Shown here one piece after another: positions 310-63,236 of a DNA stretch of 64,000 bases. Numbering within the stretch: position 1 is the first letter of the stretch; each line of letters starts with the position of its first letter. Both the position numbers and the translations under genes were made by a program. Source of the stretch: Echinarachnius parma (taxonomy: Eukaryota; Echinodermata; Echinoidea; Clypeasteroida; Echinarachniidae); contig JBAMJV010003126.1 in the NCBI GenBank assembly GCA_037951105.1, positions 106,001-170,000 of the forward strand. The letters run 5' to 3'. The notes below the pieces were generated by a model, which was not told where the DNA came from, did no database searches, and saw only the letters and a list, made by a program, of their open reading frames with translations.

Positions 310-3142
310 GATTTATGACGGGTAATGAGGATTACTGGACTCACTTCCGCGGGGGTCCGTTCCCAAACTTTCACGAGGGCAACCACTGGCTCGGCATAGA
401 CTTCTGGGACGACGACAGGGTAGCGTGGGAATACACGGGCAACTATTCGCAGTTTGTCTTCACCGATCGAGCTCAGAGAGTGATTCAGCAACATGATCCA
501 AACAAGGTAAGAGTATGTTAGTACCATCTGTACGAAGAATAGAAGAATCTTTATAGAAATAGTAAGAGTCAGGCTCCATTGTACAGTAGATTTTTATTTG
601 TTTTCTGGGACAATGGAAGAGTAGCATGGGAATACACTGGAAAGTAGTATTCACAGAGTTTTGTCTTCACCGATCGAGCTCAGAGAGTGATTCGGGGGAA
701 CATGATCCAAACAAGGTGGGATCCTTTTTTATCAACATCTTTCAATATTTGCAGCGGAATTAGGTTCTATGTTACAGTTGAATGAGGATCCTTCTATCGT
801 ATTTTAGACTTTGGAAGCATAAAAGTAACTAGATAAATATTCCTAGTTCGTCTTCACTGAGGGGGCAGAGAGTGGTTCAGGACAGAATTTAAACCTGAGA
901 AGCATACAAGTTTGTACATTTGTGTGTCCATTCTTCATTGTGTCTGATACCCTTATATTTTCATTTTGCCTTTTTATGCATTCGGCAGCCTCTGTTTTTG
1001 TATCTACCCCTCCAATCCGTCCACGTGCCGCTACAAGTGCTAGAGAAATACCAGAAGCCTTATTTAAGCATTTCAACAAATATATCCAACTTTGACATAT
1101 TTTCATTTTGCCTTTTTATGCTGTCGGCAGCCTCTGTTTTTGTATCTACCCCTCCAATCCGTCCACGAGCCGCTACAAGTTCCAGAGAAATACCAGAAGC
1201 CTTACGCGCATTTCAACAACACAGATCGAGCAACCTATGCGGGCATGGTCGCAACGATGGATGAGGCCGTTGGGAAGATCGTGGACACTTTACAGGAGAC
1301 TGGGTTGTGGGATGACACTGTGCTTATCTTTACCACTGGTAAGCAGTATACCCCCTCCCCAATTTGCGGGCACACCATATCTATTTCTTCATTTTTTCCA
1401 CATATTTTCCTCTCATGTTTTTTGTTGTTTATGTTAGATTGTTGGGGGGGGGGGGGGGGGTGGACTCCAATCTCCATATTTATATTTATATATTGATGTA
1501 AAAATAAATGTTTAAATCATTTGCTTTTTAAATTATTTCAGTTGAATATCACTATAACTGTAAAATGTGGTAATATTCGCAGTGAACAAGATTAATGCAT
1601 CAGATTTCATCCCATCCCCCAATTTCCCTGATTATTGAAATATTATTGTCATTAGGTTGTATGCATTTGATGTACCTGTATGTATATCTCCCTGATTTTT
1701 TATGAAATTGCCCTAAATCTACCTGATTGTCGAATTTCAATGTTGGCAGCTCTGTACCATACACTATCCTCTCCTTCAACCATTAACTTACAGACAACGG
1801 AGGCACTCCTGCCGGCCAGGGTATCAACTGGCCTCTGAGGGGCGGGAAGAACACCCTCTGGGAGGGCGGTCTCCATGGTATCGGCTTCGTTACGGGTCCC
1901 GTAGTCCCCACCCCGATGCGAGGTACCGTCAGCAACCACTTCATGCACATCAGCGATTGGTTCCCGACGCTCGTCGAAGGCGTTGCGAAATGTGACGCAT
2001 CTGGACTTGCCCTGGACAGCTTTAACTTGTGGGACTCCATTACGTAAGTATGCAAATTCAAATCTAACCGACAATATTGAGGAAAAAAATTGTTAGATAT
2101 GGAGTTACATGCCTGTAAATAGCTTTAACATTGCTCCTCTGTGTAAGGATTCATTTTGCAAGTTTAGATGATATTGCAAAACCCTTCATTGTGTATACAT
2201 GTTAAATGGCCTTGTTATACAGAATTTGGGGAAGAATAATTGTTTCTTTCTTTACACTTTTGCTAGTATCTAATAACCAAAACTAATTAATGTTACCCAG
2301 TACCTTTAATATTTGATAGTGGATTAAACATGGCATTTGGCAAGGAGTTAAACGGGCACAGTTATCTTATCCTTATAGTTTGGGGAATCCATCTCCACAA
2401 AAAGAGCTTTTTAATACACAACATCAACTCCTACATCCTTGCAGACATTCCCTTTAATTAATTGAGTACCAATGTCAAATTTTTGCACCACACAATGCAC
2501 ATAAATGCCATAGAGCTGTAAAATCCATGGCATTCAAAGTGTTCAAGACAACAAACAACCCAACATGGTGTATATAATTCTTTAGAATTAAACAAAATGT
2601 AACTTTGCTCTTTAAACATTATAGATTGGGAAAACCATCCCCACGAAAAGAGCTGCTTCACAACATCGATCCCTACATTCGCGCCGACATCCCCTTTACT
2701 TATGACGAAACGAGTGACATGGCGTATCCTGTCGACGGGAGCTATCCCAAGATGGCGGACGAGTTTTCCACGCAGATGAGAGCGGCCATCAGGGTGGGAG
2801 ACTGGAAGCTGGTCACGGGGGCACCATGTAAAAAGAGTAAGTTGCTATCAGTGTCGGTGCGGGATTGAGGAAGGGGGCAGCTAGCATACGGAACATTTGC
2901 CGAGACGCTGAGAATCATGTGAAAAAAAGAATAAGCATGAAACTGTCATAGCTAGAAGGGTTTTATGAAATGGGCCCTGGTATGAACATTGGCAGAGGAA
3001 AAAAAATAAACACGAGCTCTGGTCGATTTGGTGCCAATTAAAAAGAGCACCCGATAACCATGAAAGAGTCTTGGTAAAACTACTTTTAGGTTGCTATTTT
3101 ATGTAGGCTACATCATAAGGTAGCCTCAACAAAATAAATTTC

Positions 3143-3208
<66 letters not shown>

Positions 3209-3762
3209 CCCCCTCCTAAACATTGGTCTGTTTTATCAATCCCTCAGGTCGCGATGTGTGGACCCCTCCCCCAGAATGGAACATCCATGCCATCCATCCC
3301 GTGGAGGTTCCTGGCAAGGTGACTTGGCTGTTCAACATCACGGCCGACCCCTGCGAGAAGAACGACCTCTCTTATCAACGTCCAGAGGTGAGTTATGTGA
3401 AACGCGTTCTTACCACCTTCCCCCTTCCCTACAATTATATACAATCTCTGTCTGTCTGTCTGTCTGTGGCACAGCGTTTAATCATAGTATGCAATTAACG
3501 CTGTAAAAAAAATGTAGAGACACATATTTCTATATGTTTGAATGTGGAATGGATTGCTATTTTGGGATGTTGGTTCTCTATAATCAAATTAGCTTGATAA
3601 CTATTACAATTGTTTCCCTTCCGATTCCCTTTGTAGGTTGTGGAGCAGCTCGTGGCTAAATTGTCGGCATACTACGAGACCTCGGTCCCAATCCGTTTCC
3701 CAAACCAGACGATCAAGGCAAACCCGGGGCTACGCAATGGAGTATGGGGACCGTGGCAATGA
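310..3762 (+). CDS. ARSB: Arylsulfatase B-like (N-acetylgalactosamine-4-sulfatase), 5' partial
   Basis: Exons by GT-AG sites: 310-506, 1131-1338, 1794-2043, 2625-2836, 3248-3387, 3637-3762 (TGA 3760-3762). All phases agree and give 376 residues, against about 530 for a full arylsulfatase B. The N-terminal part with the formylglycine Cys motif lies left of the window. Visible family marks are [21 protein letters not shown] (with the substrate-pocket His), the TTDNGG metal-ligand Asp-Asn across the exon 2/3 join, [12 protein letters not shown] (active-site Lys), [18 protein letters not shown], and the C-terminal GVWGPW typical of ARSB. The family desulfates GalNAc-4-sulfate ends of chondroitin/dermatan sulfate in lysosomes. 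The exon 4 donor could instead be at 2828, giving three residues fewer; gtaagt at 2837 is the better match. Whether this is the ARSB orthologue or one of an expanded arylsulfatase family cannot be told from the C-terminal part. Confidence 0.9.
600..716 (+). pseudogene. Decayed copy of sulfatase exon 310-506 (3' half)
   Basis: This repeats roughly positions 400-510, including ttctggga, gtagc(a/g)tgggaatacac and an unbroken tttgtcttcaccgatcgagc stretch, and ends at aacaagg|tggg where the real exon has aacaag|gtaaga. An in-frame TAG (aaagtag) and a gggg insertion break it. A shorter third copy of the same piece (ttcgtcttcactgag...cagagagtgg) lies near 846-880. These are intragenic duplicates inside the intron. 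Confidence 0.8.
955..1096 (+). pseudogene. Decayed copy of the start of sulfatase exon 1131-1338
   Basis: The intron end and first about 85 nt of the next exon occur twice, offset by 142 bp: tttcattttgcctttttatg, then cag, then the residues [12 protein letters not shown]. The upstream copy has VHVP and VLEKY instead of VHEP and VPEKY, and runs out after KYQKPY, with no donor. The downstream copy at 1131 is the working exon. The near-identity of the acceptor could permit occasional use of the wrong site. Confidence 0.85.
2379..2458 (+). pseudogene. Decayed copy of the start of sulfatase exon 2625-2836
   Basis: Positions 2379-2458 follow the same ttatag acceptor and match the start of the real exon (ggaa(t/a)(a/c)ccatc(t/c)cca, aaaagagct, acaacatc, ctacat, gacattccctt), with stop codons and small indels. 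It reads as a third intragenic exon duplicate in this gene. Confidence 0.75.
3145..3208 (+). repeat. Poly-T tract, 64 nt
   Basis: An uninterrupted T run 39 bp upstream of the acceptor of the exon at 3248. It may serve as an exaggerated polypyrimidine tract. The length of such a run is unreliable in an assembly. Confidence 0.9.
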
Positions 3763-3772
3763 TGTGAGGATA

Positions 3773-5662
3773 ATGCAGGTGTCATTCGTATGACGCACCT
3801 CTTGACCCCCGGGAAAGGTGCGTCATGGATGCATCATGTACTCCCATATTGATGACACACAGTACCATCATGGGAGCGAAAGGTCAGTCACAACACTGAC
3901 CCATTTGTGCATCATAGTCAGTCACTTTACCATGGGTGCGTCACAAGGTTCGTCAATAAGACTTTAGTGAAGCCATATATTGGGGAAATGTGGTGTGTGA
4001 TGGATGGTATGTGTTGTTGTTATTGATGCACACACATACGGCAGTCACCAGCACCCAATACAAAGTTCACTAATAGAAATAAGACAGCACAACGACTGAA
4101 TAAAAGAATGTCCACACAAGTGATATAGAATTTGGATGACGTCATTATTGAGAAGATAAACAAATGTCCGAAAGATGTATTGCACGGTGATTAATTAAAG
4201 TCCATGGTCATATAATTGATAGTCAGTTGGCCTGAATGAAACGCGCATCCGCGGAAGAGATGCAGGTGTCATTTGTATGATGCACTTCTTGACCCCTGGG
4301 AAAGGTGCGTCATGGATGCATCATGTACTCCCATATTGATGACACACAGTACCATCATGGGAGCGAAAGGTCAGTCACAACACTGACCCATTTGTGCATC
4401 ATAGTCAGTCACTTTACCATGGGTGCGTCACAAGGTTCGTCAATAAGACTTTAGTGAAGCCATATATTGGGGAAATGTGGTGTGTGATGGATGGTATGTG
4501 TTGTTGTTATTGATGCACACACATACGGCAGTCACCAGCACCCAATACAAAGTTCACTAATAGAAATAAGACAGCACAACGACTGAATAAAAGAATGTCC
4601 ACACAAGTGATATAGAATTTGGATGACGTCATTATTGAGAAGATAAACAAATGTCCGAAAGATGTATTGCACGGTGATTAATTAAAGTCCATGGTCATAT
4701 AATTGATAGTCAGTTGGCCTGAATGAAACGCGCATCCGCGGAAGAGATGATCGATGAAATTGAAGAAACGCGAGCGTGCGTGAAGAGAAGGCGATGTCGA
4801 GAACCGCGAGAGTTCGAAGACGATGATGAAAGTGATGAACGCGATGGCGCGTGGAAAGAAGTCGATATTCAATATATTCAGTTCCATCGTTGAACAAGCA
4901 CGTACGATGTGGCTGCGATGATCTCCGGCGTGTTGCCGTGGAGAGAAGCTAGCCTAAACGCTGTGCTATAAACGTGTCCGTTAGATAAAACACAAATTAT
5001 GAAGAGCAAAGAATCAAAGGTCCGAAGGGCTCGGTAGATGAGAAGGCTGATGATGTCGAAGAAGACTAAGAAGAAATGGTGATAGTTTAACGGCCCATGT
5101 CGGTCGGCGGACTCCCCCTTGATGTGAAGAAGAAATAGGCATGAATTGTAGCCCCGTATATGCAATCCATTGCGGCCATCATGAGTTTAATGGTAACTCA
5201 TATGGGTGAAGAAGAAAGAGCTAAATAGGTGTAGCTCGGGCGAATGATGAAGACAGAGTGAGAAAGCATGGTTTGTGTGCTAGTGTGTATGCAGTAAAAC
5301 GCCACGAGGTCCAGAATAGAGACAAAGAGATTCTTATCTGAGTGGAGTTGAAACAGCTAGGACCAGCGAGACAGGAAATGACTTCAATGTTATGTAAACA
5401 AGTTGAGGTAAAGTTTCACTGGTAGAGGATGGCTAGTCTGTTGTTCAGACTGTGAAGCGAGTCCCTACAAGACCAATAGAACCGTCATTTTCATGAATGG
5501 TGCCTCACAATTTTGACTCAAATATGCGTCAATGTTTCCTAATAGTGAGTCACTTTTTCTGACGGAGGGTGCGTCATGGTTCATAAAAGGGTGACGCATA
5601 TCGGTACAATGACGCACCTTTCCCGGGGGTCAAGAGGTGCGTCATACAAATGACACCTGCAT
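3773..5662. mobile_element. 1.9 kb terminal-inverted-repeat element in the sulfatase 3' UTR
   Basis: The first 54 bp (3773-3826, starting atgcaggtgtcatt) are the reverse complement of the last 54 bp (5609-5662), with one mismatch by eye. The left 487 bp is directly repeated (3773-4259 and 4260-4746), so a third, more diverged terminal copy lies inside at 4260. No transposase reading frame is visible, so the element is non-autonomous. GTGCGTCA words recur through it. A clear target duplication could not be settled (candidate AT). It begins 10 bp after the arylsulfatase stop codon. Confidence 0.85.
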
Positions 5663-5704
5663 AACTCCCTTTTCTTTTACATCGTAATCCTGTGTCCTCC
5701 AATC

Positions 5705-6320
5705 CTAAAAAGTTGCGACAGGTGACCAGTCACAGTTATCTAGATAGTAGCTTGCCTTTAGTATTGTCCTTAGAGCCAGAGCTCGACTGTGTGATGGTCC
5801 TGGTACCAATGGCCACTGAAACACACCACAGAGTATGGGGACCGTGGGTATGATGTGAAGTTGACCTGTTGACCTGTGAGGTAGACAGTAGCTAAGTATA
5901 GTCCTTAGATAGAGCCATGGCTCGACTTTAGCGGTGGCTCTGATGCCAATGGCCACTAAAACACCACAGAGTATGGGGACCGTGGGGATGATGTGAAGTT
6001 GACCTGTCACTGTGAGGTAGACAGTAGCTAAGTATAGTCCTTAGATAGAGCCATGGCTTGACTTTAGCGGTGGCTCTGATTCCAATGGCCACTAAAACAC
6101 CACAGAGTATGGGGACCGTGGGGATGATGTGAAGTTGACCTGTCACTGTGAGGTAGACAGTAGCTAAGTATAGTCCTTAGATAGAGCCATGGCTTGACTT
6201 TAGCGGTGGCTCTGATTCCAATGGCCACTGAAACACCACAGAGTATGGGGACCGTGGGGATGATGTGAAGTTGACCTGTGAGGTAGACAGTAGCCAAGTA
6301 TAGTCCTTAGAGAGAGGTCA
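5705..6320. repeat. 136-140 bp tandem repeat, about 4.5 copies, carrying the sulfatase stop-codon region
   Basis: Copies are marked by gtatggggaccgtgg at 5831, 5971, 6107 and 6243. Each unit contains ccaatggccact, caccacagagtatgg, gatgatgtgaagttgacctg and ggtagacagtagc. The piece gagtatggggaccgtgg followed by atgatgtga is also the end of the sulfatase coding exon (GVWGPW, then the stop, near 3742-3770). The repeat therefore appears to include about 30 bp derived from that gene's end. Open frames on the minus strand here are repeat artefacts. Confidence 0.85.
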
Positions 6321-6942: not shown

Positions 6943-9269
6943 AGGGATAGTTGAGTTTTGGTAAAGAGGGCGCTGCACGAAATTTTAGGTAAATTTGTTG
7001 AGGTATATCATTATTTTAACAAAACATCACATGCACAATTTTTTATTGAAAATGGTTGAAACCAATGAGTTTTTAGAGAGTGCCCTCTTGAGTTTTAACG
7101 GCTCTTTTTTAATAACATACTTTTTACTTACTGTAGTCATTTGAATTTTTCTATACCTTTCGAGCATGGTGGAGTTATGACTATTAGTTTGTAATGGGCA
7201 ATTCCAAGCAAACATTGACATAACCACTGATTTTTCAAATTCGTTGTACCATAACAAATTTGGTATCAAATGAAAGCTAAAAGATTGAACTTTCCAAAAA
7301 TGTATTTTGTTTTTGAAAAAAAAAATTGTAAACTATCATTTTATTGTTAATATATAGCATACATTAATTTTCAGTTATTTTCACAAAACATTCAATTAAA
7401 TATTAAGCATAAAAGAACTGCGAAAAGGAGTTTTCATAAAATTTTATTTCAGTGTTGATAGGATCATTGCTTCAATTTTTCAGATAAATATCAATTTCGT
7501 CATTTTCGCTCTTCGTTCCGCTTCAGTGACTGTCTCATTAACAATCATTAATATGTCACGGCGTTACACTAAAAACATATATTTTTAATATTTCTGGAAA
7601 AATATGAATGGGAATGAAATAATTTTTTGTTTTCTCTGTATTAGCCCATAGGGCTATAATATGCATGCTGAATAGCAGCATTATCTTTTACCACTTATTA
7701 ATATAATCAATATCAATTTGGTCACTGCGTTACGTTTTGTGTAACGCCGTGACGCTACCTACTGGATTCCCATTGACATAACACAGTAGACATAATCAAA
7801 TAGTGTAAGATATTTTTTGTAGGTATGCTTGGGCATTGCTCATGCTATAATTATATGAATAGGGTCAGTTGATAATGTTTCCATCTCAAAGTTACCCGAG
7901 TCATGTATGTGTATGGGTTGTATGTCCGTCTGTCTGTATGTGCATCTGTACATCAGTGTTCTTTTTTTTGCAATATCTCAAGAATCGTTGGATGGATTTC
8001 GTTCAAACTTTGTACAATCCATGTATTTAGAGGTACGGATTATTGGATATGATTTTGGTCCATGAGGTCAAAGGTCAAAGGTCACATAGCTAACAAATAT
8101 GCAAAAATTATATTATTATCAAGATAGTTTGAGAATCCTTGAATGATAACATGATAATAATACTGGTACGCGTCCAGTGAAGTATATGACCTGATTAGGG
8201 AATGGGGTTATGGGAGGTCATAGGTCAACAGGTCAAAATATTGTTGTTGTTTTTTGTTCTCACAATTAAGTTCCAGAATCAATGTTAGAAAGAGTACTGT
8301 AGGTAAAAGACAATTTTCTGAAACTGTTTGGGGCACAGGTCAAAGGTCACTCGGATAATTACCAATTCAAAAACAAACATTTACTAACTCTGAAATCATG
8401 TTACATGAAACAAATCACTTGCAAATATGCACTGTGCAGACCAAAAATTAAACATTTGTATGTTATTTTGAGAAACAAGGTCAAAGGTCAGATGTCAAAG
8501 GTCTCATATTTCATTGTTACATTTAAGTATGTATTTTGGTTTTAATATTTCATGGTTCCATTAACTAACTTCTGAAATAGATAAGAATTTCAATTATGTC
8601 CTAAAAGATTTTTTGATCAATAGAGGGCGCTGTGCTGCAAATTTGTGTCATGCGGATGATCATTTAATAGCATCTTGGTTATATCACCCATTCATCTAGT
8701 TCTTTATTGATTCTGGATCACTACATTAAAATTATATCATATTATTCATCTCTTTAATATCTCCCATATATATAACATGTACAATTCAGAGGTCACGGCG
8801 TTACAGTCACGGCGTTACAGTGCATAGATACATTTATGATATATATACTATGAGCATTGGATTTTTTCTACATTTTTATTTGGATGTTCTAGCTTGATGT
8901 CTAGTACAAAGAATCAATGTGACAAAAGTGCAAAATGTTCCTGTAGTTCACAGAGTTTACTTAGTTTCTTAGCATGAAAGAAACCCATGTCTTTTTGCCG
9001 TCACGGCGTTACGGCAGATATTGATATTCATAATCAATAATTTATTGGGAATTTTGGTTTTCTTGCCTATTGTAAATTATTGGTAGGATAGTGGTTACAG
9101 ATGCATATCAAAAGTTGGTTCTAGATATTTAGATTTTATGAGTTATTTGGACTTTCATTGTGAGAAACACCCTCTGACCGTCACGGCGTTTGCTTGGAAT
9201 TGCCCTAATGTAAATGCAAATTCAGTTTGATGAAAACTGTACTCTCTTTACCAAATTTCAATTATCCCT
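6943..9269. mobile_element. TTAA-flanked MITE, family T2, split by element A
   Basis: It starts agggatagttgagttttgg and ends ccaaatttcaattatccct, flanked by TTAA at 6939-6942 and 9270-9273. Other family members lie at 23686, 24107, 26826 and 39126. Shared internal words are gagggcgctgcac and cgagcatggtggagttat. TTAA targets and short AGGG termini fit piggyBac- or Kolobok-type non-autonomous elements. Element A (7196-9205) sits inside it. Confidence 0.85.
7196..9205. mobile_element. Element A: 2.0 kb transposon with 18 bp TIRs and an iterated GTCACGGCGTTAC motif
   Basis: The termini GGGCAATTCCAAGCAAAC (7196-7213) and its exact reverse complement (9188-9205) are flanked by TAAT (7192-7195 and 9206-9209). 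The related, uninterrupted MITE near 24568 reads attagtttgtaatgtaatt across the same spot, so the insertion boundary and the 4 bp duplication are confirmed by an empty site in this same window. The motif GTCACGGCGTTAC occurs at 7555, 7721 (1 mismatch), 7741 (reverse), 8792, 8806, 9000 and 9180 (truncated at the right terminus). No transposase is seen. Four-bp duplications occur in several superfamilies (for example Sola, Chapaev); I cannot assign one. Confidence 0.85.
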
Positions 9270-9273
9270 TTAA

Positions 9274-9638
9274 AGGGATCTAGTAACTTTGTTGACATAC
9301 ATGTGCAAAAACCGACCAAGGGTTGATAAAATATGTCCCACTGAGTGATGTGTGAAAATTCCATGGTAAATGAATGTCATAATGACATATAAAATGCAAA
9401 GTGATATTTGCTAAACTCATTGCACTGACTTTGTGCAGTTATAATTATCCACTAGATAATTATAAATCTGCTGAACACTTCAATGATACATATCTTTTTT
9501 AAATGGAAAAGACATTTGGAAAACCAAAACATTTTCCATGCTTCTTTTGATAACTACGAATACAACAAGGTATGAGAGAACCACTAGAGTTCTATTTAAA
9601 GTAAGTTTTGTGGATTTGGACAATGTTACTAGATCCCT
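9274..9638. mobile_element. TTAA-flanked MITE, family T1
   Basis: It begins agggatctagtaactttgttgacat and ends tggacaatgttactagatccct, flanked by TTAA (9270-9273, shared with the T2 element, and 9639-9642). Other members lie at 14699, 29660 and 31460, with an interrupted one at 26644-27476 and a fragment near 39770. Confidence 0.85.
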
Positions 9639-9642
9639 TTAA

Positions 9643-11017: not shown

Positions 11018-21852
<10,835 letters not shown>

Positions 21853-26201: not shown

Positions 26202-27476
26202 AGGGTACCACCACCCAAAAATAATATTCTTATTAAAGAAAGGTAACATCTTTAGTATTCCATTCCATCAACAAGTTCACGAAAATATGTTTCCAGAAAC
26301 AAAATATATAATTGGAAACGCATCACCATTCTAAAGCATGCGTTCATGCGGTCTGAATTGCGTAGACTGCGATGCGTGCGGTGAATTGCAATGTGTGCAG
26401 AGCGAACGAATCGCCCGGGAATCTATTGTTTACAAACGTACGCGTGAATAGCATTGGCGCACTTGCAAATGGTTGGCCCGTATGGAACCAGGAAATAGCA
26501 GTGGTTCCGTAAGTGGTGGAAATTAATTGCTTTGTTTATGAATTACACAACCTTTTGCAAAATGTTGGGTATCTATTTGATATCACAAAACGGTACCAAA
26601 ACATATAATAATGTGTTGTTCTTTGCCTGGTGGTCCCCTTTAACTTTGTTGACCACAGTGCAAAAAGTGACGAGTGATTAATAAAATGTGTATTGGTGTG
26701 AGTGTGAAAATTTCACGTTCATTGGATGTTTTTTGGCTGAGAAATGAACAAAAAAGCAAAGTGATATTCACCAACTCATTGCGCTTACTTTGTACACGGC
26801 TTAAATTATCGGGTAGACAGTTTAAAGGGGTAGTACAGTTTTGGTAAGGCTGAACTTTAGTAACCAAAACCTGCACAGTAACATAACAAACTAATATTTA
26901 TAACCCCACCATGCTCGAAAGGTATACAAAAATACAAACGACTATATAAAAAGCCTGTTATCATTCAAATTGGTTTCATCCATTTTTCATACAAAATTAT
27001 GCATGTGATGTTTTTTTGAAATAATGATTAAATAGAGAGATCATCAACAATTATTTAAAAACCGCTTTTGAAAATTTTTGAAAAAGTGTAAGCATTTTTT
27101 TGTTTTTCTTCAAAAAATCATCGTATTTATTTGGGGCCCAAATAAATACGATCGGATATATTGATTGATATTTCAGCCATTTCTGAACCGATTTTGACCA
27201 TAAAGTTTATTCTGCCATTAAAATTGCATGTTCAAATTCGACACTCAGTTTTTCATTACCTCATGAAAAATTGTGTTGTGCAGCGCCCTCTCTACCAAAA
27301 CTGAACTACCCCTTTAACATCTGAACACTTCAATCGTAAATATTTTTTGAAACAAATGGAAATTTGAAAATCCGAAACCGGTCCAGTGCTTTTTTTGTTA
27401 ATATTATATACAAGGTATTAGGGAACCACGGAACCACGAGAGTTTCAAGTAAGTTTTGAGGATTTGGACAATCCCT
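26202..27476. mobile_element. Composite of three TTAA MITEs (T3, T1, T2)
   Basis: T3 occupies 26202-26639 (agggtaccaccaccc ... gtggtcccct). It is followed after TTAA by a T1 body that has lost its first dozen bases (ctttgttgaccacagtgcaaaaagtg). T2 occupies 26826-27313 with its own TTAA on both sides. The T1 body then resumes (catctgaacacttcaatcg) and ends ggacaatccct at 27476 before TTAA. So T2 is inserted within T1, and T3 has replaced T1's left end. Confidence 0.8.
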
Positions 27477-27480
27477 TTAA

Positions 27481-28987
27481 ATAGGGTTTCGTTGTATAGT
27501 CTCGGTAGAACAACCGTCGGAGCAGAGACTCATTTTCAATTATCGGTCTATAGGAGTATTCTTACTACAAATCGACTTGCATTTTGCTGAACGGAAGAGG
27601 AAACAACCAAGCAGCTTCTTTGTAAGAGAATATTTAGATTTGTTAAAGTGCCTTATAATCATGTGGCAGATGATGGTTTTCAACGTCCTGTAAATTCATA
27701 TGTTCCATCAATTGGATTTTGAAATACGATATAGGAGTGGGAGATATTACAGTTTATAGTCAGAAATAACCCCCCCCCCCCCCCCCCCACCCCCATTACT
27801 CAGAGTTCTAACCAGACCCAGTCTCAGTGGACAACCGGTCGGAACAGAGACCGAATCTTCTCTATAGTAGTCTACAGTTCATATGTCTGTTATAGTCGTT
27901 AAATTACCAATACCTTATATTTTGCAATATTTCGTTTTCACTAACACTGCAATATTTAAAGTCAACCTTTTAAATTGTGTTTACAACTACAAGATGACAA
28001 CGCGTCGAAGCGACGTGGAAGGGGAATGATCAGATGGGAAATTAATAATAAGTCAATCAGACTGACTAGAACTTTGTCTAGGGCCCGGGGATTCCATAAT
28101 ACTAAATTTGAAGAAATAAATAATGCATCATTATACTTAGGTCATTTTCGTTACTTGTGGACTGTACATTATAGTGGACCTACGATCCATGCATAGTAGA
28201 ACAGGCACATTTTTGAAGCCAGCTCGAGCGACATAAGTCTGTTGCCCCCCCCCCCCCCCCCCCCCCCCCCCATAAAAAAAACAAAAACAAACAAAAACAA
28301 AACAATCCTCCATGTTCGTTATTCATCTGAATATCCACACACAAAAAGTTCCGTAACCTTATCGCATTTGTCTAAAATAAAATGGAATGAGAAAATAGGA
28401 TGAATATGTGAGATAGTTTGGTTTTGGCCGTTCTTAGATCATGACCAAAAATGTGATTATTTTCCCTCATATACATAATGTATATACAAGTGCAATAATT
28501 ATTTCCCTCGACTTTCTAGTGATTTGTGTTATTTTGCGTTGTCAAACAGTGTATTTGCTACCTCGCTCTTATTTCGGCATTAGCTCGTAAATTTGATAGG
28601 AAAGCGAACCCATGAACCCATGAACTATATGACCGTGGTATTCAGTGAAGGAGTGAATTTGCTGTCCAGCAAGAATTACTCTTTGACTATAACTAAGTAG
28701 TGGCGTAGCTCCGGAGGGGGGGGGGGGGGGCGTGGGGCACGGAGGGGCATGTGCCCCCCCCCCCCCCTCCCCGGCCCCCGATAATATGCCCAAACAATGA
28801 AAAGCATAACGGTAATATACTTTTTAAAATAATTATAAAGAAATATACAGAAAAATAAAGTCAGGTGTGCCCATAGTCATTTGTGTGCCTCCCCCCCCCC
28901 CCCCCCCCCCCAATCCCCTATCCAAATAATTCGCGTGCCCTACTCAATCAGTCCAACCAAGGGGGGTTTTTTTGTTTTTTTTACTCC
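27481..28987. other. No gene recognised; C-rich homopolymers
   Basis: C tracts lie at about 27771-27789, 28245-28271 (C27), 28753-28767 and 28890-28911. A GTGGCGTAGCTCCGG element end with a G run is at 28704-28730. A short repeat (cagactcagtc/ggtcggaacagagac) is shared between 27500 and 27850. Confidence 0.6.
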
Positions 28988-29242
28988 AGGGGTGTGTTTC
29001 ACAAAGATCCCAAGTCGAACTTACGCTAAGTTGGACCTAACTAGTATGGAAAGCCGTTAGTTTCTTGGTTACATTGTTGTAAAAGCTATTTTAAAACTAA
29101 AAGGCATACATTTCGGTCGAGTAATCAGTAATATGTGTTATTTTTTAAGGAGTCTTGAAGTTATTGATATATCTTTTGTGTTGGCTTTCCATAATATTGT
29201 TAGGTCCAACTTAGATGTTGGATCTTTTGTGAAACACTCCCT
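28988..29242. mobile_element. MITE with GTGTTTCACAAAG termini, second copy
   Basis: aggggtgtgtttcacaaagat at the left and atcttttgtgaaacactccct at the right, with inner arms ccaagtcgaactta / gtccaacttagatgttgg. Same family as 13086-13370. Confidence 0.8.
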
Positions 29243-29659
29243 GGAACATAATATGGTCAGAAATCCATGCCAGGATGTAGGTCGGGATTGCTGACAGCTG
29301 ATACCCTTCTATAGATAGACCAGAACGGACCGGGTCACAGACTGTTTTTGTGCTTTACAAACTACAGTATATACAATTCATGTATAGCCTATAGGTCAGC
29401 AATATTATGTCGGGCCAACCTTATTTTCAATAATAAGTACATTTACAAAACTTAATTGGAAAATCCACTGGTTTCAATGATCGTGGCATATCGGGAGACT
29501 ATAACACATAACAAGCATGTATCTTTAGACTAAGTACGTAGACATATAATCATTGGCGAAAACATTGTCAAAATCCTCAAACTTTACTTAGAACTCTAGA
29601 AGTAATTCTCACATTCTTCTTTTATGAAAATCGTACAAATTTAATGGATCACAGCTTAA

Positions 29660-30322
29660 AGGGACTGGGTAACATTGTCCAAATCCTCAAAATCCAATTG
29701 GAAATCTAGCGGTTCCCTCATACCTTGTTGTATTGTACTAACAAAAAAATCATGGGACAGGTTTCGGTTTTTCAAATTTCTCTTTCGTTAAAAAGTTTCG
29801 ATTGAAGTGTTCAGATGTTAAAGTGAGTTAAACTATCCACTGGACCGCAAAAACCGTGTACAAAGTGAGTGCAATTAGTTAGTGAATAGCACTTTGCATT
29901 TTTGCTCTTTACTCGGCCATATAACGTCCATTTAACTTGAAATGTTCACACCACACCCAGTGGACATATCAGATAACAACAATATAAGACAATTAATCCA
30001 CAATTGCTGCTCTCTACCCAGGTGTATAAATGGGTACCATGGTCGGGTGTTAATTAGCCGGTAGCGCCATCATCAGTGGCAGCTCCGCTAGTATGCTCCC
30101 CGGGGAGTTGAGAAAGTACGCAATATCATTGTGTTGGTTTGAAATGTACCTGATGACCATGGGTAATAATAATTTAGACAGTTATTTAAGCGCAGTAGAG
30201 TATATATTTATAGTAGCTGCGCTATATAAATGTTCATATTATTATTATTATTAATATACATAACATTGTATCAACTACTCATCACTTTTTGCACATGTCA
30301 ACAAAGTTAATACTAGATCCCT
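29660..30322. mobile_element. TTAA-flanked MITE, family T1, hosting a SINE
   Basis: agggactgggtaacattgtcc ... aagttaatactagatccct, flanked by TTAA (29656-29659, 30323-30326), in the opposite orientation to the 9274 copy. A SINE-like insertion interrupts it at about 30005-30256. Confidence 0.8.
30005..30256 (+). mobile_element. SINE-like element with (TTA)n tail
   Basis: It contains ctctacccaggtgtataaatgg, then ggtttgaaatgtacctgatgaccatgggtaataat, then gcgctatataaatgttcatatt and a (att)n tail. The middle and 3' parts also occur in the SINE at 51491-51680. The tRNA-like head is missing here (5' truncation). Confidence 0.7.
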
Positions 30323-34274: not shown

Positions 34275-34278
34275 CTAT

Positions 34279-35954
34279 GGGCAACTCCAGCGTCACGGAC
34301 ATTACAAATCAGAGAATTTTCATGACTTTCCAATGCCACTACTAATTCATACCTCTAATTAATGTCTAACTTTTATTTTGATTACAAAACAATAGCCTAG
34401 TTAAGAATGCAAAAAAAGTTTCAGAACATTTATCCAATTCGTTACTGAGTAATTCTGCAAAATGTGCGCCGTCACGGACATTACATTTTTTGGACATGAC
34501 TTTTTGCATCCATATACATCTTTGCAAAAGTCTGTGAGTTCTGAGAGCTCACAAAGGGGATTTAGATATTTAATTATAGACAAGGCAATGATGAATTGAA
34601 TCCAAGTTGTATTTTGAGACACGGGCCAGGCATATGTGATCTAGACAACAAAACGTTGCGTCACGGACATTACATTTTCAGCGTCACGGACATTACACTT
34701 TTGTCCACTTTCTCTGTACTCAGAAATAACCCGCAAAAAATGCTCCATTGTGCATGAAACCTTTTTAATTGTACATTTGAAATGTAATCAAACGGTTTTG
34801 AGAAAAAAAATTCATATTTCAATTTTTTTTCAATGAGAAAACAAATTATTTTAAAAATAGCAACAATTTTTTCCAAAATTATTGTAAAATTTGAAATTTT
34901 TCAACAGAATGTGCAGTAAGCCAAATGTTCAACTATTTAAAACAATATCATACATTTTTGATGAGGTACAATGCTGTTTTGTGCTAAAAAATGGTTAAAT
35001 ATAAAAAAGTTGTGTACATCATGGGCATAACACATGGAAAATCAAGGACTAAGAGTATAATTTTTGCAATTTGATTATACTATATGAGATTTATCCATCT
35101 CTTTCTCCTCTCAGTAAGTTATAGTCAAGTCTTTATTGATTATTGAGACATGCATGTTCAAATTGAGCAAGGAATTTAGTTTTATAAATCGTTCAGAGTA
35201 CTGACTTAAAGTTCACTATCTGATTAATTATACAATTTATTAAAATTTGTACCAGGAAGGTAGTAGTCCCCCTGTTACTTGGGATTATCTTATTTATTGG
35301 CTAGAATAAGACATTTACATAAGAAAATAATGCTTGAACATTTTTAGCTCTGCTTTTTTATACTTTTCACTATGTATGTAATGTCCGTGACGCAGCCGTG
35401 ACGTAATGTCTGTGACGCCATTCTGGACAAACCATCCAATATTTTATTAAATGCTCTTGATATACTTCATGATACCACATTCTAGCTTTGCAAATGAATT
35501 TTGAATTAAATTGAATTAGAACTTCTGCTTCTACAAAAAACTTTTATATCTAAAACGTCACGGACATTACACATCAATGTTGTAAGAATCAAGATTTTAT
35601 CCAATAACAGTTTTCACAAAGTAAAGATTTTTACACAATTTCCTTTTCTATGATGTTAAAACAAAGCATACACAAGACATTAGATGTAGAATTATTGTTC
35701 TGAAGTGATCCATATTTTAACATTTTGTTTCACAAACAACAGGTGCAAATTTCATCATTTTGGGGGATAATACATATAATTTTTGTCCCAACTTCAATGG
35801 CCAAAAAAAAATAATTCTGCATTGAATTTCAAACTTATTTCCTTTAGTCATCAAAATATGGATGGTCCTTCCTCATTACTATCCAGTAGTTAACAAGGCT
35901 GTCCCATGAGTTTCATTTTTCCATCCTTGGGTAACATTTTTCGTGGAGTTGCCC
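34279..35954. mobile_element. Element B: 1.7 kb transposon with GGGCAACTCCA termini and an iterated GTCACGGACATTAC motif
   Basis: GGGCAACTCCA (34279-34289) and TGGAGTTGCCC (35944-35954) are inverted repeats. CTAT flanks both sides (34275-34278, 35955-35958), a 4 bp target duplication as in element A. The motif GTCACGGACATTAC lies at 34292, 34471, 34660, 34683, 35378 (reverse), 35403 (reverse, 1 mismatch) and 35557. The spacing and frame of the copies vary, which argues against a coding repeat. No transposase frame is visible. Confidence 0.85.
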
Positions 35955-36371
35955 CTATACTACAAGACCCTTACCTTGACTGGCTGATGCCATACTGTAA
36001 AGCAGCAATGTCAATATAATTTTGCGCCTATGGTATTTAATTTTAATATGGAAGTAAATCATTGACAAATAGTATGTTATTGAAATATATGACTCTAACC
36101 AAGAAAATCGTTGGTTTTAATTATAGAAGATCAATTAAAGGGATCATCATTTATATATAACTCAGAAACTTTCAACAACAAACAATTACGGTATGACCGT
36201 TTGAAATTAATAGGTAAATTGGCATTCCATTTTTGTAGCTGACCACAAGTTTCGGTCAAACTGAATTTTAGTAAAGGCCCAGTCCCATATCACTGACGAT
36301 TTTCACGGCGACTCGCAACGACTCGCAACGATTTACTAGAACAAATCGACTCGATTTAGTCACGGTTTTGG

Positions 36372-40010: not shown

Positions 40011-40086
40011 GGTTTTCTATAGCTCAGTCGGAAGAGCACCAGTCTAGCAATCTGGAGGTCTCGGGTTCGAATCCCGTCGGAATCCC
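40011..40086 (+). tRNA. tRNA-like gene, anticodon loop CTAGCAA (AGC)
   Basis: Both Pol III boxes are present: TAGCTCAGTCGG (A box) and GGTTCGAATCC (perfect B box). The anticodon arm is CCAGT-CTAGCAA-TCTGG with a T-T mismatch closing the loop, and the T arm is CGGG/CCCG. The acceptor pairs GGTTTTC with GGAATCC imperfectly, and four rather than two nucleotides separate it from the D arm. The anticodon would be AGC (Ala), though the body looks more like a threonine tRNA. It may be a pseudogene or a tRNA-derived repeat. Confidence 0.5.
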
Positions 40087-40518: not shown

Positions 40519-40905
40519 GCTCCCAGTAAGAATCCAGTAAGGCTGACCAGTAAGAAGACCAGTTAAAGTAGTTGGTATCAACTGGTATTTTGAATTGGTT
40601 TGAACTGGTATTTCTATTGGTTTTAACTGGTCTTCTGTGCATCTGTCCATTTATCTTTACCCAGGTTGAAAAAACAGTTGAAACCAGTTGAAACCAGTTG
40701 GAAATTCAACTGGTTTTTACTGGTTTTAACTGGCATCAAGCGGTAGCAGTTTACATTCCCGGTTCCCAGTAAAGATAAATGGATAGATGCAGCAGTCCAG
40801 TTAAAACCAATAGAAATACCAGTTGAAACCAATTCAAAATACCAGTTGGAACCAACTACTTTAACTGGTCTTCTTACTGGTAAGCCTTACTGGATTCTTA
40901 CTCGA
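40519..40905. repeat. Large inverted repeat built from CCAGT/ACTGG words
   Basis: The left arm (agaatccagtaaggctgaccagtaag...) and right arm (...cttactggtaagccttactggattct) are complementary over about 110 bp, including the inner words ttaaagtagttggt and ggtttgaactggtatttct. Further CCAGTTG repeats extend to about 41000. A foldback element with an internal minisatellite. Confidence 0.8.
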
Positions 40906-41049
40906 TTCCAATTGATTCCAGTTGATTCCAGTGTACCAATTTCCATATTGAAACCAGTTGGCCAACTGGTGGTATCAACTGGTACCAGTTGGCAACTAAT
41001 TTTCAACTGTTTTTTCTACCTGGGCAGGGACCACTCTTAACCATTACCA

Positions 41050-49200: not shown

Positions 49201-52200
49201 TGAAATATATGGTTGGTTTGATAATCAACTTGTAACAAGCGGGGGCTTGTCCAGTAAAATATGTCACGTGACGTTCAATAGCTAAATGGAGATAACTACT
49301 AGAGGCGATGATCTCCAGGAAGCTCTGGAGAGTGTGAGGGAGGACTGCCCTGCACTCGGGGAAGAAAGGTATGGATCATACTTCAGCTGGTATTCAAGCA
49401 AGATTTGTGGAACAATCGACTTGTAAAAAATATGACAGAGCAGAAGAGGAGGGCGGAGGCTTCCCTCAATAACAAGATTGAGGCAACCGCCAAGGAGATG
49501 AGGCAGTTACAGGAAGCCTTAGAGAGAGTGCGAGGAGGGATTGTACTGAACTTAGGGAAGAAAGGTATGGATTCATGTTTTTGAAATTATGCTTGGTTAT
49601 GCTTGGTTTTATAATCAACCCGTTACAATTGGGGGCTTGTCCGGAAAAATATGTCATGTGACATTCAATAACTAGATGGAGATAACTACTAAAGGCAATT
49701 ATCTCTAGGAAGCTTTGGAGAGTGTGATGGAGTACTGTACCACATTTAGGGAAGAAGGTTATGAATTCTTGTTTTCTGTATATAGTACTTAAATATGTTT
49801 GGTTTGCTAACCAACCTGTAACAATTTGGGGCTACATGTCAGGGAAGAATTTGTTGCATGATATTCAACAACAAAATGTTGGCTGCCCCTGGAAGCTTAA
49901 GATTAGAAGCTTAGAGAGTGAGAGGAGGGACTGCACTGCACTCAGTGAAGAAAGGTATGGATTAATGTTTTCTGTAATACTGAAATATGATTGGGTAAAT
50001 AATCAACCTGTAACATTTGGGGGCTTGTCCGGGAAAAAATGTTGCATGACATTGCGTCAGGTGCTTGAGACGAATACCAAGGATATGAAACAGTTGTAAA
50101 TTTATGTAAAAATATGAATGTACATTTTTGTAAAAATATGATTGTCACAAAGATAGGCATGTGCAAGATTTGACAAAATGTATAAACATAGATTTATTTA
50201 TTACTTGTTTTTCAGAGAAGCGATGGTGAAGTCACACCAGCGGCGCATCGAACAACTCAAGGAGAGCTTTGCACAGTGAATAAAATGTGTAGAGGGATGG
50301 TTGGACATTGATTTACAGTATACAAATGATGCGCAGGTATGAGTGGGTCGGTAGGAATTGTTTGCACAAGGTAACTATGGAACTGTTAAACCCACGAGGC
50401 GAAGCCGAGTGGGTTTAGACTAGTTTCCATAGTTACCGCGTGCAAACAATTCCACCGACCCACAAAATAAACTTGCGCATCATCTGTTTTATAGAATGGG
50501 CATTGTTACGCCCCCCAAAAAGTCAAAAAATTAAAAATTAGAAAAATTACCGGATGCATGAAATAATTTTACCGGACGCATGACATTTTTTACCGGACGC
50601 ATGATTTTTTTACCGGACGCATGACATTTTTTACCAGACGCATGAAATTTTTACCGGACGCATGAAATTTTTACCGGACGCATGATTTTTTTACCGGACG
50701 CATGACTTTTCATGCATCCAGTACAATTAATTGTCTGGACAAATTTTGCTCTCAACCAATCAGATTGCAGGGATTTATCAACCCATTCTATAATAACAGA
50801 TTAATAGAGTACATGTTGTTCTATTTTACATGCTCAAAAATTTAATTTTATGTTTCTTTTTCGTGTTCACCAGGGAGTCGATGGTGACGTCACACCAGCG
50901 CCGCATTGAACAACTCAAGGAGAGCTTTGCACAGCGGATACAAGATGCTGAGGGATGGCCAGAGAAGGTATGCATTTACATATCTGGGGCGTGTTTCACA
51001 ACGTGAGACTTACAATAATGTCATTTTTTGCCTCCAACAAAGATTCTGCTAAGATCAAATTGATTGACTCTCAGCCTTTTTATTTCTGTGCCATCCTTGG
51101 CCAGCTAGTTAGGTCACTGCAATGCGAGAGTACAGTTTCATTTTTTTCTTTGCCACAATCAGAGACAAGGGCAAAGTATTTCAAAAGAACAAGAACCTTA
51201 TAAACCCTTCGCCTACATCAAACTGGTGTACCATGTATCAATTGAAATAGACATTAACTAGTCAAACAAGCGTTTTACATTTCATGATTTCTTGTCAATA
51301 TTTTCATTGATTTCAATGTTTGATATAACTAGCATTTGCTTTTCTCTCCAGCTAAATGAGACCATTGCTAAAGAGAGAGACAGACATGCCGCAGAGTTAG
51401 CCAGTCTAGAGGAGAAACTGCAGAAAGCATTTCAAGTGGTGAGATCTTCCTCTTTATTCACTTGAAAAGTGATTGTTGACTACTAGAAAGTGTTGTGGCA
51501 CGATCGGATAAGCGCTTGACTTCTAATCTCGAGAGTTTAAATGTGTACTTTGTCAAGTTGAGATGGTGCGCAAGATAATTGTGTGGGTTTAAACTGTACC
51601 TGATGACCAAGGGTAATAATGCACCTCTGAATAGACCACCTAGATACATGGCGCTCTATAAATGCTATGTCCATATTATAATTAATTTTAGGGTAGACGG
51701 GTGAAACATTTATTGTTGAAATGTGTGTCTAGATTTCTCATTGATCGTAGAAGGTTTATTGAGGATTAATTGGGACTGAGAGAGAAGTATAGAGTAAAAG
51801 CTGTGAAAAGGTTATATGGTTTAAACAAAAAGATATGTTATTTCTTATCATTGTCTTCTTCATCAAAACTGTCCAATATTGTATCATTATGATATAATCA
51901 AATTGAAATAATTACTGTCACAATTTATCAATGTTATGATTGTGATCTGAGAGAGGCAAAAGACAGAGGAGGATGGAGGAAGCTGGGGGCAGGGGCCCGA
52001 TTATGGACCAGCGACATTTACCATGGTTATTAGCATCATTGGCTCTAACTCATTGATGTCAATATGCTAGAGTAACATGCAAATCAATAGAATGTAGCAG
52101 AGCACACATACACATACTAGCACACCTTACTCATTCAACCGTAAAGGATTTCACAAGCATAATTAGAGATCAGTGGAACTAGGGCTGGTCCTGGGTCATG

Positions 52201-60043: not shown

Positions 60044-60100
60044 TTCAAATGCTTATTGTCCAATTCATTTCACAACGTCTGTTAAGAACATGATCGTATC

Positions 60101-60710
60101 ACAGTCCGTTATTCGAAGGTTCGTTATTCCGAAGGTTCAGTTATTCCGAAGGTTCGTTATTCCGAAGGTTCGTTGATCCGAAATAAAATCGGGTTCGTTA
60201 TTCCGAAGGTTCGTTATTCCGAAGGTTCGTTATTCCGAAGGTTCGTTGATCCGAAAATAAAATCGGGTTCGTTATTCCGAAAATTAAATCGGGCTTGTTA
60301 TAATACTATAGTTTTGTGTTTTGTTTATTTAATTTACAGCCTGCATTAAGCATACCCTCCCCCTTTCCCTCCCTTGGCCAGACCAATCAAACATTTAAGT
60401 TTATTTTATCTCTTTATATGAAATTAGAGCATTATAACAAACCCAAATTCATTTTCGGATTAACGAACCCGATTTCATTTTAGGAATAGCGAACCTTCGG
60501 AATAACGAACCCGATTTCATTTTAGGAATAGCGAACCTTCGGAATAAACGAACCTTCGGAATAACGAACCTTCGGAATAATGCAACAAATGTTCGGATTA
60601 ACGAACCCTATTTCATTTTCGGATTAACGAACACTCAGGTATAGGAAATTTGCGTGTTCGGAATAACGAACCTTCGGAATAACGAACCTTCGGAATAACG
60701 AACCGCACCC
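60101..60710. mobile_element. Foldback element of TTCGTTATTCCGAAGG repeats
   Basis: The left part repeats (gg)ttcgttattccgaag and the right part its complement (cttcggaataacgaacc), with ccgaaaataaaatcgggttc variants. ATCGTATC flanks both ends (60093-60100, 60711-60718), an 8 bp target duplication. A hAT-like non-autonomous foldback. 610 bp. Confidence 0.85.
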
Positions 60711-60840
60711 ATCGTATCGGAGTAGTGTATACATGGGAATCGAGTCTGTCGTGACAGCAGGCCCCTAGCTTCCTTTATTTGACTTTATCATCAGGACAGC
60801 CCAGACAGCAGTATTATTTGGTTTGTTCTTGGGGTGCTAC

Positions 60841-61391: not shown

Positions 61392-61774
61392 AACAAGCAA
61401 TGTCCACTATTTCGTTGGAACATCGCAGTTTACGGTCTGTAAAATCCTCAGACGTCATCGAGAGGAGGGTCAATTAAAGCTACGGGGATTTCTAGGACGT
61501 CCACGATTGACCACCAGGATAAATGATCGCAAATTGCTTAACTTGTGCCGTAGAAACCGGAAATGCCAAAAAGGAGCCTTCGCCGTCTATGAAGAAGACA
61601 CTATGGAATCAACGCCTTTCGCCAAACTGTACATCATAGATCGCTCTAACATGGTCACTGAGCAAGACAAACTTCCAAGTGTCCACTCCTAACCATGCAA
61701 CTGAGATTTACCGGACATCCCTGGACTAGGGAGCCCAGAAGATTGCCGCCTGGACACTAGTGATATGTCATCTT
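61392..61774 (+). pseudogene. Tc1-like transposase fragment
   Basis: SNVHYFVGTSQFTVCKILRR and LGRPRLTTRINDRKLLNLCR resemble the N-terminal paired-type helix-turn-helix and linker of Tc1-family transposases. The catalytic DDE part is absent or frameshifted. It ends at gatatgtcatcttaa, the same point at which the inverted partner (62465) begins. Confidence 0.75.
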
Positions 61775-61920
61775 AATGGGTACAAGCCATAACATCCTTG
61801 ACCGAACATAATGGAAGACGAAGGGTTCGTTGATTACGTGGCGAGAAGCTCCAAGATTTCTGCATTCACAAAACGACTTGACGTTGTGGCGGCCAAACGG
61901 TGGTATGGCTCGTACCCATT
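61775..61920. mobile_element. 146 bp insertion with AATGGGTAC.AGCCAT ends
   Basis: aatgggtacaagccat and atggctcgtacccatt are inverted with one mismatch. The interior (cgttgattacgtggcgag...) is unidentified and may be part of the Tc1-like reading frame captured between the arms. Confidence 0.55.
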
Positions 61921-61922
61921 AA

Positions 61923-62464
61923 AGGGATACCTGTAAAGTGTCAGATATTGCACAAAATGACATTTGAGACTTCAATCCTATATCAATATCATTGTAAAAT
62001 ACAATTGAAAGATTTGTGAAAGTTTGAAAGAAAATGAACTGTTTACCTAGTGAAAAAAACGAATATTGAGTTCATATTTTATCACCGAATACTGATGGCC
62101 TGCCGTAGATTTGTCTCAGTAATAATCATCCGTTTGACGATATCCGCACCCGTGTATGTTTACAGACGGTACGGAATTCATGGAATTTGCGCGCGCTCGG
62201 CTCAGTTCAGTGGGGTCGGGAAGGTTTCCCACGCGCGCTGGCCGGACGTGTTCAGCTACGGCAATTGTACTTTTTATCAAAAGCGTTAGCTAACGCTTTT
62301 GAAATAATGATTTTCAATGATAATTATCTTCATACTAAAGGGACATTTGAAAAAATCTAACCCTATTTTATTCTTCTTTTACCATAAGCTAAACAACACG
62401 GCAGAAGATAAACGAGGAAGCTCCAAGTATTTTTCGTGGAGTTAGACACTTTACAGGCATGCCT
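61923..62464. mobile_element. TTAA-flanked MITE, family T4
   Basis: agggatacctgtaaagtgtc ... gacactttacaggcatgcct, with TTAA at 61919-61922 and 62465-62468. It separates the two inverted Tc1-like fragments. Confidence 0.85.
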
Positions 62465-63236
62465 TTAAGATGACATATCACGAGTGTCCACGCGGCGTTC
62501 TTCTGTACTCCCTATAGTCCAGGGACGTCCGGTAAATCTTGGTTGTATGGTATTCGTTGGACACTTTGTAGTTTTTCTTGCTCGGTGACCATGTTATAGC
62601 GATTTCTGATCTACAGTTTGGCGGAAGGCGTTGATTCCATAGTGTTTTATTCATAGACGGCGAAGGCTCCATTTTGGCATTCCGGTTTCTACGGCACAGG
62701 TTAAGCAATTTGCGATAATCTATCCTGGTGGTCAATTGTGGATGTCCTAGAGATTCCCGTGGCTTTAATTGACCCTCCTCTCGATGACGTCTGATGATTT
62801 TACAGACCGTAACCTGCGATGTTCCAACGAAATCGTGGACATTGCTTGTTGACACCCCTTCCTGGTAGAGCACAAGCATCGCTTGGCGTGTAGAAAATGG
62901 CGTTGGACGGAGTATGGCCTAGAGAGCCTCTGTGCCAATTTTGGTTGAAAATTGTGCAGCCAACTCTGAGAAATGACCCATAACGATGACTTGTTGGACA
63001 TACGCTTTGGAGAGGGAAAGGGGCTAATCATCAAAGGTCCTGCCTTTCAGAGCTCAAAACAAAAAGCTAAATTAATTAATGCAAATTCATGCAACCATTT
63101 ATTGTACAGTGGTAGTTTGGAAACATTATAAAATCATTATTTTTAGTCTAAAATGGTTCATTAGGCGCAAAAATAGGGGAAAAGAATGAAGTTGGACCTA
63201 CAAATTTTGTTTCCAACTTTATGACCAACAGTGTAG
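62465..63236 (-). pseudogene. Tc1-like transposon fragment, minus strand
   Basis: The minus strand reads SELAAQFSTKI... then QAMLVLYQEGVSTSNVHDFV, GTSQVTVCKIIRRHREEGQL and TTRIDYRKLLNLCRRNR, the same protein region as at 61392. The outer end, ctacactgttggtcataaag read on the minus strand (to about 63236), is a typical Tc1-type terminus. Frameshifts and loss of the DDE half make it inactive. Confidence 0.75.

Follow-up and report, generated by a model that had tools for sequence, protein, structure and literature searches.

VANDALs are Mutator-type elements, Ac/Ds (hAT) elements make an 8-bp duplication and have a single hexamer motif, and piggyBac/Kolobok elements duplicate TTAA. In the soybean CACTA elements (En/Spm; Tgmt*/Tgm1), the terminal inverted repeats (TIRs) are described as conserved and the subterminal motifs as differing between two subfamilies, and co-evolution of these motifs with TNPA-like proteins has been proposed (PMC2613891). 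For Arabidopsis VANDAL21 and VANDAL6, the VANC anti-silencing proteins and their words are reported to evolve together (PMC5735166; PMC10398659). Sola2 elements are described with 4-bp target-site duplications (TSDs) and short TIRs of 12-21 bp (PMC3627910), and Ac/Ds elements with 11-bp TIRs, subterminal repeats and heterogeneous non-autonomous derivatives (PMC3260210). A Repbase rule places non-autonomous elements in one superfamily when they have equal TSD length and at most one mismatch over terminal positions 1-11 (PMC4455052).

Here we analysed a 64,000-nucleotide stretch of Echinarachnius parma DNA (the window) together with the 1.2-Gb genome assembly of 14790 contigs. Our reading is that element B of this window is a non-autonomous DNA transposon belonging to a large group of many subfamilies, whose iterated words would be bound by an element-encoded protein with a specificity that switched along with the words; we assign it a probability of about 0.78. 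Element B probably moves by cut-and-paste.

Transposon anatomy of elements A and B

Element B is a non-coding TIR element containing seven copies of the word GTCACGGACATTAC, six of them exact and one with a single change (Table 1). Its terminal type, 4-bp CTAT duplication and seven motif copies were recovered as the initial annotation had given them, and the first copy does start 2 bp inward of the left TIR, at 34292. The pattern GTCACGG-N1..4-TTAC produced 11 matches against 0.02 expected from shuffles, and the most frequent 14-mer of element B occurred in six exact copies, against a maximum of three in 500 first-order Markov resamplings. Inverted pairs of 11 bp with equal 4-bp flanks numbered 11 in the window and 0 to 2 in 40 random windows; since such pairs are not rare in this window, the doubt that they leave was removed by copies elsewhere in the genome instead.

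Element A represents a sister subfamily. Its TIR was found to span 18 bp rather than the 11 bp first reported, and its word, GTAACGCCGTGAC, is present seven times (five exact copies, one with one change and one with two). The changed word at site 1 was identical in 20/20 A copies, which had been chosen on that site, and an A word lay 358-359 bp from the far end in 6/6 A far ends. No B word was detected in element A and no A word in element B, even allowing three changes. Over terminal positions 1-11, A (GGGCAATTCCA) and B (GGGCAACTCCA) differ by one mismatch and both have a 4-bp TSD, which places them in one superfamily under the Repbase rule. The longest stop-free stretches in the two elements did not exceed those of random sequence.

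Table 1. Positions of the features of elements A and B in the window, and words and outer site offsets (bp from the element end) of the seven subfamilies
Feature	Position	Strand	Remark
Element B	34279..35954		1676 bp
TSD CTAT, left, element B	34275..34278	.	
Left TIR GGGCAACTCCA, element B	34279..34289	+	
B word site 1, exact	34292..34305	+	offset 13
B word site 2, exact	34471..34484	+	offset 192
B word site 3, exact	34660..34673	+	offset 381
B word site 4, exact	34683..34696	+	offset 404
B word, exact, inverted	35378..35391	-	
Half copy GTCACGG	35396..35402	-	flanked by two inverted B words; absent from the initial annotation
B word, one change (GTCACAGACATTAC)	35403..35416	-	
B word, exact	35557..35570	+	
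Right TIR, element B (GGGCAACTCCA end)	35944..35954	-	
TSD CTAT, right, element B	35955..35958	.	
Element A, sister subfamily	7196..9205	-	2010 bp; TSD TAAT, 18-bp TIR
A word site 1, changed (GTCACGGCGTTTG)	9180..9192	+	13 bp from A right end
A word site 2	9000..9012	+	193 bp from A right end
A word site 3	8806..8818	+	387 bp from A right end
A word site 4	8792..8804	+	401 bp from A right end
A word, other arm's inner site	7741..7753	-	
A word, one change (GTCACTGCGTTAC)	7721..7733	+	
A word	7555..7567	+	359 bp from A left end
Subfamily A, word GTAACGCCGTGAC			20 copies
Subfamily B, word GTCACGGACATTAC			20 copies
Subfamily C, word GTAACACCGGGAC			grid 13/193/390/404; 1 copy (L274)
Subfamily D, word GTAACGGAATTAC			grid 13/194/390/411, then 742; 1 copy (L278)
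Subfamily E, word GTAACGGAAGGAC			grid 13/191-192/385-389/399-403; 2 copies
Subfamily F, word GTAACAGCGTGAC			grid 13/193/390-391/404-405; 2 copies
Subfamily G, word GTAACACCGTGAC (listed also as ATAACACCGTGAC)			grid 13/193/390/404; 1 copy

Genome searches allowing up to three mismatches returned at least 1304 matches (672 + 632) to the left end of B, including site 1, and at least 668 (341 + 327) to the right end of A; the reversed-pattern control gave 0 in both cases. Of the 20 fetched B copies, 15 had two ends flanked by the same 4-bp sequence; no right end was found in the other five, one of which lies at a contig end. The two-ended copies measured 1605-1687 bp (seven), 785-792 bp (five), and 423, 705 and 2319 bp (one each, the longest being checked for reading frames only). 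For A, the far end was fetched for 6 of 20 loci, with identical 4-bp flanks in all six and element lengths of 2002-2032 bp. The fetched copies were perfect matches and the first among those listed, and they therefore lean young; median divergence from the consensus was 0.6% in A and, in two groups of B, 1.9% and 1.2%.

In the five B copies of 785-792 bp the words are confined to the left arm, which indicates that two word-bearing arms are unnecessary. Past movement seems to have needed no more than two sites at each end, as in L247 (423 bp), or four at a single end, as in the 785-792-bp copies. An alignment of the window copy with 17 of the 20 fetched B copies (L247, L255 and L257 omitted) contained site 1 exactly in 18/18 copies, which were chosen on it, and sites 2, 3 and 4 exactly in 15/18, 16/18 and 13/18, the remaining 3, 2 and 5 copies having the site changed or absent. 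Within the B family, word sites diverged by 2.5% and the rest by 4.1%, a small advantage that is expected if copies drift after insertion.

Several other features were recorded in the window. An inverted-repeat element at 15069-15613 has G-rich ends (CCGGGGGGGTCTGTCCTCAT), about ten iterated words (CCCTAAGCAAGTA / CCCTAAACGAGTA) and flanks sharing ATATATTAC, a possible 9-bp duplication. A palindromic element of ~380 bp with ACCAGTT-like words occupies 40528-40906, eight near-tandem copies of TCATGCGTCCGGTAAA at ~20-bp spacing occupy 50546-50705, and the inverted arms of a fold-back structure at 60097-60712 are made of many copies of GAACCTTCGGAATAAC. More TIR elements lie at 21180-21697, 27317-29818 and 9273-9639, with ends TACAGGGTGGCCCC, or ends ACATCTGAACACTTCAATCG and AAGGGATCTAGTAAC adjoining T/A-rich flanks. 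A pair of inverted fragments at 61447-62795, with inverted flanks, is related to a helix-turn-helix protein that is probably a transposase. A Pfam profile search of nine window frames outside A and B matched the minus-strand frame 62481-62918 to HTH_23 (E 1.3e-6), the plus-strand frame having no Pfam match, and identified a sulfatase exon at 1068-1493 (+) (Sulfatase, E 2.9e-15). tRNA genes are predicted at 40012, 59487 and 59973. In locus L242, a 363-aa reading frame lies between ACTCGGAGTAA arrays within a very long inverted repeat at ~1500-6315.

A common grid of word sites

With A reversed, its word centres lie at 19.5, 199.5, 393.5 and 407.5 bp from one end and at 365.5, 531.5 and 551.5 bp from the other; those of B lie at 20, 199, 388 and 411 bp, and at 391, 545 and 570 bp. 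A match this close over seven sites was reached by 0/200000 random placements, whether the sites were spread uniformly or kept within 600 bp of the ends, and by 9/200000 under a null fitted to the data. Taken alone, the four-site arm was matched by 6 or 7 of 1000000 placements, and the three-site arm, more weakly, by 5433 of 1000000. The positions also hold across copies: site 2 falls at 186-195 in 19/20 B copies and at 192-197 in 19/20 A copies, and sites 3 and 4 of A fall at 387-394 and 401-408 in 20/20. An outer grid at ~13, 193, 390 and 404 bp from one end is common to all seven words described below, and in the copies examined the words at these four sites face the same way.

Both the grid and the alignment of the arms pair the right end of A with the left end of B, and alignment of the two elements in the same direction was rejected. 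The initial annotation had set A as GTCACGGCGTTAC against B GTCACGGACATTAC and described a retained core, GTCACGG..TTAC, with a middle changing from CG to ACA. That description does not stand, as A was compared in the wrong orientation; in the grid orientation its word is GTAACGCCGTGAC. The mistaken alignment looked plausible because the words are near-palindromic, with 10/13 letters in A and 8/14 in B equal to their own reverse complement.

Compared between reversed A and B, the part of the arm lying between sites 1 and 2 outscored each of 5000 Markov resamplings and each of the 598 other stretches in the window. With consensus arms, the score of this first stretch was reached by 0/2000 resamplings for A against B1 and by 1/2000 for A against B2; the second stretch was weak for A/B1 (89/2000) and not significant for A/B2 (330/2000). 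The far arms of A and B gave no alignment beyond chance after the TIR was trimmed (1115/2000), and L247 aligned with A at chance level (643/2000). Of the four controls with mismatched ends, one (reversed A left with reversed B left) also gave a low value (22/1000). Among the arms of A, B1, C and D, 10/12 stretch comparisons were reached by at most 25/500 resamplings, the exceptions being the second stretch of B1/D (173/500) and the first stretch of C/D (78/500). The grid match and the arm alignment support the proposal, made from the sequence at the outset, that A and B are sister elements.

Private words change together at all sites between subfamilies

Five further subfamilies, C to G, were studied through their outer arms only, the C and D ends having been met by chance in the flanks of fetched loci. 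The outer arms that were fetched lay on the grid in 2/2 cases for E, 2/2 for F and 1/1 for G. An end pattern followed by GTAAC..AC with six free inner letters, which leaves out B and also A (its site 1 being changed), returned 2567 matches (1271 + 1296) and 0 in the control. By a count made by eye among 100 of the matches listed, 97 carried a word exactly (E 46, D 33, F 11, C 4, G 2, H 1) and three were one-letter variants. H (GTAACACTGTGAC) was not counted as a subfamily, with one match among the 100 listed and no iteration in its single copy. The C copy (L274, 1-1263) has ten sites and repeated blocks around 240, 467 and 671, ~204-227 bp apart, as if its number of words had grown by tandem duplication.

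The expectation that each subfamily would have one private word held in the samples of copies and in two pair counts, with seven words instead of two. The B word was present in 0/20 A copies (up to 1528 bp each), the A word, allowing one change, was absent from the first 1700 bp of the 20 B copies, and exact matches to the other five words tested numbered 0 in the E and F outer arms; no copies mixing the A and B forms, the outcome that would have told against the original proposal, were seen in elements A and B or in the sampled copies. Genome-wide, E followed by E at the site spacing occurred 1799 times (888 + 911), and E followed by D 0 times. A general pattern for sites 3 and 4 gave 1200 + 1202 matches against 19 + 24 in the control, with equal words in both matches whose letters were shown (n = 2). 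The companion expectation of iterated motifs throughout the family was borne out for subfamilies A to G and failed at two ends: the first 442 bp of L292, the end with word H, contained no iterated words, and the end-like sequence of L251 carried its own word once and had no paired end that we could find.

All seven words share an outer GTMAC and a final AC, and their spacer and inner half vary, the inner halves being GTGAC, GGGAC, AGGAC or ATTAC; site 1 starts with ATAAC in C, D and G and with CAAAC in A. This near-palindromic form, an outer GTMAC joined to a variable spacer and inner half, suggests that the words may be bound by a dimer or by a two-domain protein.

Comparison of arms revealed one word throughout a subfamily and, between subfamilies, its exchange at all sites together. 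Outside the sites, A and F agree at 331/359 and 333/360 letters (92%), and their words differ alike at positions 6 and 7 at all four sites, site 1 differing at its first two letters as well. The two E arms agree at 283/353 letters outside the sites (80%) and at 51/52 word letters. The remaining pairs are more distant (A/E 61-68%, A/C 65%, C/E 67% and E/D 63%, the last with three sites aligned), and each shows a common set of word changes at every aligned site, to which further changes are added at site 1, and a single one at site 2 of L287. Expressed as divergence outside the sites, these values are 8% for A/F, 20% for E/E and 32-39% for the other compared pairs. The retention of the word at 20% arm divergence and its replacement at all sites at 8% argue for selection by a recogniser that itself changed. 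Furthermore, in the palindromic relative L247, 41/42 unselected word letters match B and the sequence outside matches at 68 to 71%; the word letters are under constraint against a diverged background.

Reading of the words and comparison with known systems

We infer that a candidate element-encoded protein binds several copies of its word in each arm, forming a multi-site complex that would move the element. Were a protein lineage to change its specificity, only elements with the matching word at the required sites would keep moving, and word and protein, switching together, would leave the subfamilies isolated from each other. The recogniser is hypothetical, because neither an autonomous copy nor a transposase was found in the 20 fetched B copies (19 followed for 9.8 kb inward of the left end, one at a contig end) or in the frames of A and B. 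The co-evolution of motif and recognising protein put forward in the initial annotation is plausible. In a bolder form, which we hold tentatively and at slightly less than even odds, the genome would contain at least seven orthologous transposon postcodes: one architecture in which the 13-14-bp word differs, every word being composed of exchangeable parts and read by no protein lineage but its own, with switches that might occur through one domain of a two-part reader and all sites rewritten together.

The words might instead be targets of an element-encoded anti-silencing protein of the VANC type that keeps copies unmethylated or open, a reading that we consider unlikely. VANC of the Arabidopsis VANDALs is described as binding short words that are iterated in non-coding parts, differ between related families and co-evolve with it, and the ten sites and repeated blocks of the C copy resemble the tandem-repeat growth of its targets (PMC5735166). 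Those targets, as described there, are dynamic tandem repeats, whereas the outer four sites are near-fixed in seven subfamilies here, so that an assembled complex fits the distances better (PMC5735166). The CpGs of the B words keep both letters in 15-18 of 16-18 copies, but several non-word CpGs of the B left arm are kept too, and CpG retention is therefore not specific to the words.

Neutral spread of the words within an element, by gene conversion or template switching and with no binding protein, would account for the agreement of sites within an element and for the pairs of sites lying 1 bp apart in A, C, E, F and G. Conversion tracts would, however, bring flanking sequence with them, and similarity between the B-word copies of element B stops within a few letters beyond the word; sites 179-200 bp apart agree even though the arms, compared between copies or subfamilies, differ by 20 to 39%, and the conserved word letters of L247 stand on a diverged background. 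We regard this explanation as improbable. Capture of host transcription-factor or chromatin-protein sites is very improbable: it would accommodate repeated words and the ~180-195-bp spacing of the first three outer-arm sites, but seven words at the same positions, swapped at all sites between arms that are 92% identical, would not be expected from fixed host factors, and mixtures of E with D are absent. A chance resemblance of A to B, or an origin of the words as simple repeats, is a negligible prospect, since the unconvincing BLAST comparison of A with B (best E 0.01) is outweighed by the grid match, by an arm alignment above all 5000 resamplings and by genome counts with zero control matches.

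How transposons split into lineages that do not cross-mobilise, and how many scattered sites come to change along with their binding protein, has usually been judged from two or three families; seven words on one grid, in one genome and at several divergence depths, open the order and mechanism of such a multi-site switch in specificity to direct testing. When the proteins have been found, the seven words would form a natural table for decoding protein-DNA recognition.

In viral contigs, the pattern GTCACGGACATTACN{0,30}GTCACGG had 0 matches. Two looser patterns matched 112 and at least 120 stretches; at least three word-like matches were present at 8 of the 232 loci, and one locus had paired ends lacking a duplication; all were taken as chance. 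When the TIR and word letters were sought in papers, 52 contained at least one of them, and the titles among the matches listed suggested primers or guides. A fixed multi-word grid was not reported among the open-licence papers that the searches listed, and Repbase may already have entries for these families.

Membership of piggyBac/Kolobok was rejected, as the TSDs vary and none of those seen in A or B copies is TTAA. The elements resemble Ac/Ds in their 11-bp TIRs, subterminal repeats and non-autonomous derivatives of varied form (PMC3260210), and were not assigned to hAT: the TSD is 4 bp, and the window scan found no inverted pair with 8-bp equal flanks. They share with Sola2 a 4-bp TSD (15/20 B copies, 6/6 A far ends) and short TIRs (PMC3627910). 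The TSDs described for Dictyostelid Sola2 are A+T-rich; those observed here are A/T-only in 12/21 cases, the others including AGGC and CCTT. Sola2 is defined by its transposase, and as none was found here membership is not claimed; iterated words do not figure in the passages on Sola2 that were consulted (PMC3627910).

Closer likenesses lie in the words themselves. As in VANDAL/VANC, short words are iterated in non-coding DNA and differ between related families; there, an element-encoded binding protein co-evolves with words that grow and shrink as tandem repeats, whereas here the recogniser is a postulated one and the sites are near-fixed (PMC5735166; PMC10398659). In A, B, E, F and G the outer arms showed no tandem multiplication of words; C has repeated blocks. 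With soybean CACTA the elements share conserved TIRs, subterminal iterated motifs that are subfamily-specific and partly similar within one species, deletion derivatives (there mobilised in trans) and a proposed co-evolution with DNA-binding proteins (PMC2613891). CACTA/En-Spm membership was nevertheless set aside: the ends are GGGCAAYTCCA instead of CACTA, and the TSD is 4 bp instead of 3 (PMC2613891). In the soybean elements as described, many motifs lie in stem-loops and two motif subfamilies are distinguished, whereas here there are seven words, with few copies placed far apart on a fixed grid (PMC2613891). The kind of system is known from CACTA/TNPA and VANDAL/VANC, and the multi-word fixed grid looks like a new variation on it.
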